Source of the DNA: a virus
IMG/VR virus record: IMGVR_UViG_3300050014_000330
Span: 1-20,754 of that record
Length of the DNA: 20,754 nt
Direction: 5' to 3' (one strand)
Shown in pieces: positions 2,181-4,920 of this stretch. Below the pieces are notes generated by a model. The model was not told the origin of the DNA. It saw nothing but the letters and a program-made list of their open reading frames with translations, and made no database searches. The position numbers and the translations under genes were made by a program. Positions within the stretch are counted from its first letter, which is position 1. Every line of letters starts with the position of its first letter.

Positions 2181-3572
2181 ATGAAACACGGAAATAAGAT
2201 CGGCCCCGTTAAGCAATCAATTAGCCAATTGAATGCGCAGGTGGCGAGTTTAATGTTATCGGCTGCCGGAGACTATACCGTCATGGGCGTCTATTGGGAT
2301 ACGACGTCAAATCCGGTTTTGGTCAGAACGGACGCATCTGCAACTTGGACGGCAGCGGCAGGAGTAGACGGTGCTCGTGTGACCAATAATTTCGACAACG
2401 CATCGATATATCGCGAAATAGGCCCAGTGACCGATTCCTACGGCAATGTGTTTATTCGCATCCCAAAATTTTATATACAGCGCATAACGGGGGTTGGGTT
2501 TAAAACAACGCGGATTAGTAAAACGCAGTATCCTGGATTTTATCTACCTCAGTGTTTTTGGGACTTTACAAACAACAAAGAGTTAGCCTACATAGACGTC
2601 GGAAAATACAAAGCGTCGCTTTCTTCCGATACCACAAAGCTGGAAAGCAAACCTAACGTGTATCCACTTATCAACGACACTATAATACAATTCCGTACGT
2701 TGGCGGTTGCAAATGGCACAGGGTATCAACAGATGGACATACACGTCGTGGATATGCTACAGGCGTTGTTCACTATCGAATTTGCAACGTTGAACTCACA
2801 GGCAATTGTCGCCGGTTATACAAATGGTCAATATACCGCAACACACCTAGCTTTAGCGACGGAAGCGGCAGCCAATCGTATAATCGTAACAAATGCGCAG
2901 GGGGCGCTATACCGCGTAGGACAGACAATCTCGGTTGGTACATCACGGGGCGGGAATCAGATTTTTTACGGCAGAACCATAACGGCAATTACTGTAGACA
3001 CGCCAACGACGGGGCAAACGGCAATAGTATTTGACGGCGCGGCGGTTACTATCACTATCGGCAATATGGTTTACAACACAGGCTATAAAAACGGGTTTTC
3101 GGCCAACATCGCGGCATCTACTGGCAGCCCAGTCAGCAATTCTGATGGGCTGAGACCGTTTGTGTATCGCGGCATCGAATCGCTATTTGGTGATATTTAT
3201 CAGTGGGTAGATGGGGTCAACATTAATGTCAATCAAGCATGGGTTTGTAAGGACGCGCGAAGCTATGCAAGCAATCTGTTTACCGCCCCTTATCAGCAAC
3301 TGGCCTATATCAACGGTAACGCCGATGGATACCTAAGCGCCATGGGATACGATCCGGCGTTACCGTTTGCTCAATTTCCAGTCGGGATTACAGGATCGTC
3401 GACAACATACTATTCAGACTACTATTATCAGGACGTAGAGCAATGTGTTGCCTGCTTCGGCGGGTCCTGGTACTACGGCTCGTCTGCAGGGCTTTGGTAC
3501 TGGTCCCTGTACTCCTCCTCGTCGAACTCGCTCGTGCTCGTCGGGGGGCGGCTCCTTAAAAAACCTCTTTAG
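2181..3572 (+). CDS. DGR target: tail-associated protein with C-type-lectin-like variable C-terminus
   Basis: The 463-aa product starts at ATG 2181 behind GGGGCGGG. Residues 1-30 are a helical N-terminus (KQSISQLNAQVASLML). A long conserved body follows (VRIPKFYI-like, YPGFYLPQCFWDF, VDVGKYKASL, MDIHVVDMLQALFTIEFATL). About residues 360-463 form the C-type-lectin/formylglycine-generating-enzyme-like domain (FVYRGIESLFGDIYQWVDG, then GGSWYYGSSAGLWYW and GGRLLKKPL). Residues about 424-459 are encoded by the variable repeat. Known DGR targets of this fold display variable residues on a receptor-binding face, so this is very likely the adhesin or tail-tip ligand. Residues at the VR sites are Tyr, Ser and Leu, as expected from adenine mutagenesis of Asn-rich template codons. 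Confidence 0.88.
   Translation: MKHGNKIGPVKQSISQLNAQVASLMLSAAGDYTVMGVYWDTTSNPVLVRTDASATWTAAAGVDGARVTNNFDNASIYREIGPVTDSYGNVFIRIPKFYIQRITGVGFKTTRISKTQYPGFYLPQCFWDFTNNKELAYIDVGKYKASLSSDTTKLESKPNVYPLINDTIIQFRTLAVANGTGYQQMDIHVVDMLQALFTIEFATLNSQAIVAGYTNGQYTATHLALATEAAANRIIVTNAQGALYRVGQTISVGTSRGGNQIFYGRTITAITVDTPTTGQTAIVFDGAAVTITIGNMVYNTGYKNGFSANIAASTGSPVSNSDGLRPFVYRGIESLFGDIYQWVDGVNINVNQAWVCKDARSYASNLFTAPYQQLAYINGNADGYLSAMGYDPALPFAQFPVGITGSSTTYYSDYYYQDVEQCVACFGGSWYYGSSAGLWYWSLYSSSSNSLVLVGGRLLKKPL
3448..3557 (+). repeat. DGR variable repeat (VR)
   Basis: This aligns without gaps to 3632-3741 (offset 184), starting at a shared TTGCC and ending at a shared CTT. In the 102 columns from TTC at 3456, 13 of the 17 template adenines differ here, while only 11 of 85 non-adenine columns differ. 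Changed codons include GGS(W), the YY pair, S-L-Y-S and L-V-L. The GC-rich end (about 3541-3557) is the expected place of the homing initiation (IMH-like) segment. It lies at the very end of the target gene, 13 bases before the stop codon. Confidence 0.88.
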
Positions 3573-3577
3573 GGGGT

Positions 3578-3597
3578 CTGGGGGACGAATCCCCCGG
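3578..3597 (+). promoter_or_regulatory. GC-rich hairpin just downstream of VR
   Basis: GGGGGA (3580-3585) pairs with TCCCCC (3590-3595) around the tetraloop CGAA. A T-G wobble and a C-G pair extend it to eight pairs. It begins 6 bases after the target stop codon and 21 bases after the VR end. Experimentally characterised DGRs have a similar 8-bp hairpin with a 4-nt loop shortly after VR that stimulates mutagenic retrohoming. No T tract follows, which argues against a plain terminator. Confidence 0.65.
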
Positions 3598-3612
3598 AAG
3601 ATACATTAACGC

Positions 3613-3773
3613 GGGGTTATGGGATGCGCGCTTGCCCTATTCGGCGGGGCCTAGCTCAACGGCTCGTATGCGGGGCTTTGGTACTGGTACCTGGCCCACT
3701 CTTCGTCGAACCCGAACGTGAACATCGGGAGGCAGACTCTTATTAAAGCAATATCATTGCATCCCATAATCCT
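3613..3773 (+). ncRNA. Predicted DGR template RNA core, TR closed by an inverted repeat
   Basis: TTATGGGATGC (3617-3627) is the exact reverse complement of GCATCCCATAA (3759-3769). Four more pairs or wobbles (3613-3616 with 3770-3773) extend the stem to about 15 bp. It encloses the entire TR, so in an RNA the two TR ends would be brought together. A small hairpin (TTACC/GGTAA, 3773-3786) follows. The 82 bases from there to the reverse transcriptase start hold no gene and would be the downstream spacer that DGR enzymes use for template-primed synthesis. RNA boundaries are inferred. Confidence 0.6.
3632..3741 (+). repeat. DGR template repeat (TR)
   Basis: This is the non-coding near-copy of the VR, between the target gene and the reverse transcriptase, as in classical DGR cassettes. 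Read in the VR frame it gives LFGGA-stop-LNGSYAGLWYW, then YLAHSSSNPNVNIGRQTL. The stop is TAG at 3652-3654, whose adenine corresponds to G in the VR (TGG). AAC codons remain at 3658, 3709, 3715 and 3721, but CTC, GCC and CAC stand at columns where DGR templates of this type usually have AAC. The template therefore seems partly diversified itself. Confidence 0.85.
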
Positions 3774-3855
3774 TACCACTTGGTAAAAATTCGCGATAAA
3801 GAACAGGGTTTAGTAAATTATTGAAACACCTTGACGCTAATAAGAAAGGGATATA

Positions 3856-4920
3856 TTGAAAAGAATCGGTTTTATTTATCCTAAGGTATACGACGTCGAT
3901 AACATTATCAGCGCAATGCGCAAAGCATCGTTAGGAAAAAGGCAACAACGAAACGTCAAACGAGTCCTCGCCAACGCCGACTATTATTCGTATGAAATTC
4001 AGAAGATGTTGATGAACAAAAGTTACGTTCCGTCCGCTGCGGCAATCAAAGAAATTACGGACAATTCCAGCGGAAAGAAACGTATGATCTGTAAACCAAA
4101 TTTCTATCCAGATCAGATTGTGCATTGGGCGCTTATGCTTCAGCTACAGCCTGTTATAATGCGTGGAATGTACGAATTTAATTGCGGAAGCATCCCGCAT
4201 AGAGGCACGAGCTACGGGCAAAAGACTATAAGAAAATGGCTTGATTCAGATCCTAAGAATACAAAATATTGCTTGCAAATGGATATCAAAAAATACTATC
4301 CGTCAATCGATGGCGAGATTTTGAAGCAAATGTTTCGGAGAAAAATCAAGGATGCTGATTGTCTGTGGCTCATCGACAGTATTGTTGACAGTAATCAAGG
4401 CCAGCCGATCGGTTATTATACCAGCCAATGGTTTGCTAATTTCTTCCTACAAGATTTTGACCATTTTGTCAAAGAAAAACTTGGCGTAAAACATTACGTT
4501 CGTTACGTGGATGATCTCGTCCTGCTCGGGCCGAATAAGAAAAAGTTACATCAAACGAGAAAGGACATAGCGATATATTTATCTGGTATGGGATTGCGGA
4601 TAAAAGAAAATTGGCAAGTTTATAAAATAAGCGTAAGGGCAATAGACTTCTTGGGTTTTCGGTTTTATAAGGACAAAACAACTTTAAGGAAACGAACCTC
4701 TCTGAGAATAAGGCGGCGTATCGCTAAGATCAAGAAAAAAGGAACGCTTAATGTAAAGGACGCATCCGCAGTAATATCGTATTGGGGATGGATAAAACGT
4801 AGCGACAGTTTCGGATTTTATCATAAATATGTCAGACCGGTTGTTAGTATTAAATCTGCAAGAAAGGTGGTAAGCGATAATGGAAAAAGAGATCAGATAT
4901 GCGGAAATTCCCGCATATGA
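3856..4920 (+). CDS. DGR reverse transcriptase
   Basis: The 354-aa product starts at TTG 3856 with AAGAAAGGG five bases upstream. It has a fingers/palm domain: MDIKKYYPSID (142-152) holds the first catalytic Asp, and QPIGYYTSQ (183-191) fits the DGR-specific [LIV]GxxxSQ signature that replaces QGxxxSP of other reverse transcriptases. YVDD (217-220) carries the catalytic Asp pair, and FLGFRFY with the following basic helices (LRKRTSLRIRRRIAKIKKK) is the thumb/RNA-binding tail. It copies the TR RNA into adenine-mutagenised cDNA that replaces the VR. The length is usual for DGR enzymes. The 3' end overlaps the next gene by 41 bases. No in-frame damage is visible. Confidence 0.92.
   Translation: MKRIGFIYPKVYDVDNIISAMRKASLGKRQQRNVKRVLANADYYSYEIQKMLMNKSYVPSAAAIKEITDNSSGKKRMICKPNFYPDQIVHWALMLQLQPVIMRGMYEFNCGSIPHRGTSYGQKTIRKWLDSDPKNTKYCLQMDIKKYYPSIDGEILKQMFRRKIKDADCLWLIDSIVDSNQGQPIGYYTSQWFANFFLQDFDHFVKEKLGVKHYVRYVDDLVLLGPNKKKLHQTRKDIAIYLSGMGLRIKENWQVYKISVRAIDFLGFRFYKDKTTLRKRTSLRIRRRIAKIKKKGTLNVKDASAVISYWGWIKRSDSFGFYHKYVRPVVSIKSARKVVSDNGKRDQICGNSRI

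Follow-up and report, generated by a model that had tools for sequence, protein, structure and literature searches.

The window (the whole stretch of DNA analysed, a virus record of 20,754 nucleotides in IMG/VR) carries a complete diversity-generating retroelement (DGR), and an adenine-mutagenised copy has probably overwritten part of the element's own template repeat (TR). The observations are the anatomy of the element, an adenine-specific loss within a bounded block of the TR, and a variable repeat (VR) which cannot be derived from the TR as it now stands. The element is confirmed as an ordinary member of a known DGR family. DGRs are an established kind of element, and it is the state of the template, albeit seen in one contig, which would interest the specialist.

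Anatomy of the element

An earlier note had proposed a complete DGR, and in this it was right: the phylogeny and motif of the reverse transcriptase (RT), the RT-18 RNA, the asymmetry between TR and VR, the hairpin and the fold of the target all agree. That note did not mention the RT-18 RNA, the hairpin following the VR or the TR-closing stem, and it missed what the 11 mismatches counted at positions other than adenine signify. The features are collected in Table 1.

Table 1. Features of the retroelement, with positions in the window
Feature	Position	Strand	Description and evidence
DGR target tail protein	2181..3572	+	463 aa, C-terminal variable domain like TaqVP; phrog_5302, AlphaFold/Foldseek, alignment
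VR, 111-nt core	3448..3558	+	Forms 3' end of ORF 2181-3572; similarity continues to about 3563
Hairpin	3578..3597	+	8-bp stem, 4-nt loop CGAA; 3' of VR stop codon; from fold; expected to act with IMH
TR-closing stem, left arm	3613..3628	+	16 bp; pairing, covariation
TR	3632..3742	+	111 nt, non-coding; place, length and codon register as in 35 other distinct TRs
VR-like block within TR	3638..3712	+	Substitutions at as many as 11 of 19 expected adenines, 9 of them at conserved sites
TR 3' part including IMH*	3715..3742	+	Adenines intact
TR-closing stem, right arm	3758..3773	+	Directly 5' of RT-18; pairing, covariation
RT-18 RNA (RF03021)	3774..3847	+	Structured spacer between TR and RT; Rfam, 64.2 bits, E 1.4e-9
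DGR reverse transcriptase	3856..4920	+	354 aa, TTG start; phrog_1423, 8ub7, tree

The VR forms the final part of the target gene, as had been noted, and is predicted to encode the C-terminus of a variable protein of the C-type-lectin type. The ORF matches the profile of the phrog_5302 tail proteins (5e-52) and was aligned with 24 relatives. Its AlphaFold model resembles TaqVP (5vf4; Foldseek 1.7e-5; Z 14.3 over residues 78-462), with the VR portion being a low-confidence part of the prediction. Residues from about 215 to 303 (2823-3089) make up an inserted domain similar to domains of phage tail and baseplate proteins and to a capsule lyase (Z 7-10). Directly 5' of the VR, at 3420-3450, DVEQC is found where most relatives have TGQR. 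The target had also been described as the last tail gene before lysis, and holin and endolysin genes do come next: the RT gene is followed by a small phage gene (5209-5490), then by the holin (PF09682) and then by the endolysin (PF08924, phrog_13480). The view that the DGR targets the variable C-terminal domain of a tail protein is supported, and host-receptor binding is the predicted role of this protein.

The RT matches phrog_1423 (1.5e-106), and its best solved relative is 8ub7 (6e-26; the next 4e-12), which we take to be the RT of BPP-1. It contains the motifs IGYYTSQ and YVDD which had been read from the translation, and motif 4 fits the (I/V/L)GxxxSQ pattern of the DGR clade. In a tree of 21 RTs, 17 including the known DGR RTs were split from three group II RTs and one of retron type with support of 100/99, several long branches calling for caution over placement. 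A placement with group II or abortive-infection enzymes, named beforehand as the outcome which would speak against a DGR, was not what the tree gave. Thus a group II intron, retron or abortive-infection RT was rejected, both on this grouping and on motif 4, which is not QGxxxSP. NCBIfam models matched far below their cut-offs and only as generic RTs, and PADLOC likewise returned generic assignments only. The RT is intact, deviating at 1 of 83 conserved columns. No match to PF05635 (Avd) was found in the 20.7-kb record, which may be incomplete.

The hairpin falls within the range described for phage DGRs, in which stems are of 7-10 bp and loops of 4 nt (PMC3240598), whilst its loop, CGAA, differs from GRNA at the first base. 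The flanks of the TR are fully complementary in this phage (16/16 pairs), and the TR would thereby be enclosed in a loop. This closing stem lies outside the Rfam RT-18 match, which starts 3' of it, and occupies the corresponding position in about 33 of 36 relatives. In an alignment of 31 distinct sequences, pairing holds in 92.5% of cells, against 38-54% in slid controls, the former value being biased upward because the register was picked for good pairing. Ten of the 16 pairs have changed on both sides in the same 31 sequences, and such compensatory changes argue for the stem more strongly than the pairing percentage. The covarying stem offers a candidate, testable RNA element for DGRs without a visible Avd. 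RT-18 itself was found in nearly all relatives tested, Lactobacillus phage LBR48 included; the tested loci in which none was found are L024, L031, L047, L048 and L075.

Adenine loss in the template repeat

The near-copy of the VR, 184 bases downstream of it as the earlier note had it, starts at 3632, and the two repeats are 75% identical over 116 columns. The adenine-directed asymmetry reported for this pair also stood, although the exact counts did not: in place of 13 of 17 TR adenines and 11 of 85 other positions, the columns from 3455 to 3556 (n = 102) differ at 14 of 18 TR adenines and at 11 of 84 other positions (Fisher p = 1.4e-7). The proposed check on related phages bears this out, since VR differences across those phages sit at TR adenines.

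Over the full 111 nucleotides the pair has 13 mismatches at positions other than TR adenines. Such mismatches number 0-6 in 34 ungapped related pairs and usually amount to one, at position 106 in the IMH. Misalignment was considered as their source and rejected: gapless and gapped alignments are the same, and the TR fits the gapless 111-nt frame of the family. RT searches yielded 44 related loci, to which a pattern built on the 3' end of the TR added others, giving 36 distinct TRs in total, at least 35 of them besides the present one; all are 111 nt long and align without gaps. Two pairs which seemed worse (L073 and L074) were set aside, since indels would account for the mismatch runs in them. 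Among about 60 pairs making up a wider set, L122 and L162 also have many non-adenine mismatches and lie outside any family alignment from which a direction of change could be read.

When the TR was scored against the 35 others, leaving it out and making no use of the VR, it was found to lack 9 of the 25 adenines which its relatives conserve and to have changed at 2 of 48 conserved non-adenines. The other 35 TRs, pooled, have changed 27 of 875 conserved adenines and 122 of 1696 non-adenines. At the background rate, nine or more losses among 25 adenines have a probability of 3e-8. The next most adenine-depleted TR has lost six adenines and carries eight non-adenine changes. Codons which are AAC or AAT in the TRs of relatives read GCC, CTC, TAT, TAC, GCC and CAC here.

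The losses are confined to the 5' two-thirds of the TR, with 11 of 19 adenines replaced up to position 81, counting sites 7 and 81, which are less conserved, and none of nine beyond it (p = 0.004). In the VRs of relatives 64% of 5' adenines and 78% of 3' adenines are mutated, and by this measure the 5' block of the present TR is VR-like and its 3' end TR-like. Furthermore, the TR has T at position 25 and C at position 64, and at both sites the VR retains A. Homing substitutes other bases for A and does not create A, which implies that the VR was copied from an older TR in which those adenines were still present. The present VR is not derived from the present TR.

One further change, inside the VR-like block, concerns the TAG at 3652-3654, where 33 of 35 relatives have TGG. 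The corresponding tryptophan of the target, W430, is invariant in the 24 aligned proteins, and in homing from a TAG codon it would be kept only when A becomes G. This change and two synonymous differences between TR and VR are ordinary mutations, so that some plain divergence is present too.

Origin of the altered block

Decay of a dying DGR, in which selection on the TR had relaxed and ordinary mutation caused it to drift, would account for the TAG at a conserved tryptophan codon and for the two synonymous differences. Drift should strike non-adenines as well, however, which the counts above do not bear out, and it should not have spared the 3' block; both the RT and the RNA are intact. The relict locus L075 offers a natural control. 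At L075:2400-2800 a VR, a hairpin-like sequence and an adenine-rich TR are present, whilst neither RT nor RT-18 was found in the locus; the pair has six non-adenine mismatches and its TR adenines are intact. As it has diverged and yet keeps them, a TR does not become poor in adenines simply because the RT is gone. A second locus, L119, has ten non-adenine mismatches beside an adenine-rich TR, and with L075 it indicates that divergence alone does not produce the pattern of adenine loss. Drift is thus a very unlikely explanation.

Locus L119 might also be taken to favour replacement of the VR by one from another phage, as tail genes do recombine; the mismatches would then be due to the VR alone and the TR would be normal for its lineage. 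This would leave the adenine loss unexplained, measured as it was without the VR. Moreover, nearly all lineage-variable synonymous sites agree between VR and TR, the exceptions being GCG/GCA and TCT/TCC, and this agreement indicates that the block derives from the same phage lineage. A swapped VR is accordingly a most improbable cause.

A third possibility is that the TR sequence is wrong, an assembly or amplification chimera having placed a VR variant between TR flanks, with the TR of the real phage intact. The record is metagenome-derived, the VRs within a population are hypervariable, and short identical stretches occur in both repeats; two scans of IMG/VR for window-specific patterns found no sister contig which would confirm the TR. 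A chimera would nevertheless require two crossovers within 111 nt, since the flanks are TR-specific and pair fully with one another and the 3' end with IMH* is of TR type. The stretches shared at the presumed breakpoints are of about 9 nt, short for read assembly, and the TAG would be a stop in any working VR. On balance an artefact appears unlikely. Finally, the record may be a fragment, and the repeat at 3632 could be a relict, with the working TR in the missing part of the genome. The 20.7-kb record holds no second copy of TR or VR, and the repeat lies between the stem arms beside RT-18 and the RT exactly as in relatives, which makes this reading extremely improbable.

The preferred reading is that the 5' two-thirds of the TR were replaced by an adenine-mutagenised, VR-like copy, whilst the RT and RNA stayed intact. 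The homing mechanism itself is taken over from the DGR family, whilst the anatomy has been established here. In the RNA containing the TR, the flanks would pair into the long closing stem with the RT-18 structure next to it; the RT would reverse-transcribe the TR, making errors opposite its adenines, and the resulting cDNA would replace the VR beside the hairpin, changing the exposed domain of the tail protein. The altered block would then be a product of the element's own mutagenesis, as the adenine pattern suggests, and the direction and timing of the transfer are likewise inferred; the present VR would have been written from an earlier, adenine-richer TR.

Two routes may be envisaged. Stray retrohoming could have integrated mutagenised cDNA into the TR, a plausible event given that some low-level homing persists when the stem-loop is missing (PMC12875486). 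Alternatively, the block may have entered the TR by recombination with a VR-type copy. Both routes fit the data, and the sharp 3' boundary slightly favours recombination. Further homing from the present TR would vary fewer codons, and the TAG would often disrupt the invariant tryptophan.

Significance

In the theory of DGRs, the TR is a master copy which does not change, the absence of the IMH and of the hairpin being what protects it. A natural TR which looks adenine-mutagenised would show this protection to be imperfect, although the present case is one metagenome-derived contig and the one clear case among 36 distinct TRs. What keeps templates intact would become a testable matter, the TR adenines of the 35 relatives being more conserved than other TR positions. 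A tentative generalisation, somewhat less likely than not, is that DGRs occasionally mutagenise their own template, by re-entry of cDNA or by conversion from the VR; adenines could only be lost in this way, and diversity might run down in the manner of a ratchet unless selection restores templates.

Search tools which are strict on non-adenine mismatches have a blind spot that would hide such TRs: DiGReF requires exact matches at non-adenine positions (PMC3521204), and MetaCSST requires fewer than four non-adenine substitutions (PMC6642488). Differences between TRs have been described in Treponema (PMC4891356). In the parts of that paper and of the open literature covered here, no description of adenine-directed TR loss was found.

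Several related loci have features of their own. Three tandem TR-like copies precede the DGR RT at L163:3300-3870, differing at few positions, some of them adenines. A TR/VR pair is present in L031, L032, L053 and L058, where only the C-terminal part of an RT was matched. Locus L101, in Apilactobacillus apisilvae plasmid p1unnamed, carries a DGR with an RT of the same group, near a GH25 lysozyme gene. The replicon, of 42.7 kb, is deposited as a plasmid and looks like a plasmid-prophage.

Comparison with known systems

The DGR of the Bordetella phage BPP-1 (mtd/avd/TR/brt) is similar in having its VR at the 3' end of a tail gene with a hairpin following it, in the order TR, spacer and RT, and in its adenine-directed differences. 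The present element differs from it in that no Avd gene was found, the spacer is RT-18, the TR is adenine-depleted and the hairpin loop is CGAA and not GRNA. TaqVP, the variable protein of a Thermus aquaticus DGR, has the fold predicted for the target, variable C-terminus included (Z 14.3), at 15% identity; unlike TaqVP, the target here belongs to a phage tail and has a domain inserted at about residues 215-303.

A further related system is the DGR of Lactobacillus phage LBR48, with an RT 55% identical, RT-18 and the same order before holin and endolysin. Its TR, by contrast, is adenine-rich, and no separate VR is seen beside it in its record. At L046:300-830 of that phage the target gene appears to continue into the TR, and the missing VR may reflect a deletion or the collapse of a repeat in an assembly containing Ns. 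The DGR of Salirhabdus euzebyi (L002/L039) and about 35 related loci, with RTs up to 69% identical, have the TR frame, the closing stem, RT-18 and the target family in common with the present element. They differ in the template itself, for in these relatives the AAC and AAT codons of the TR are intact and TR and VR have few non-adenine mismatches (0-6).
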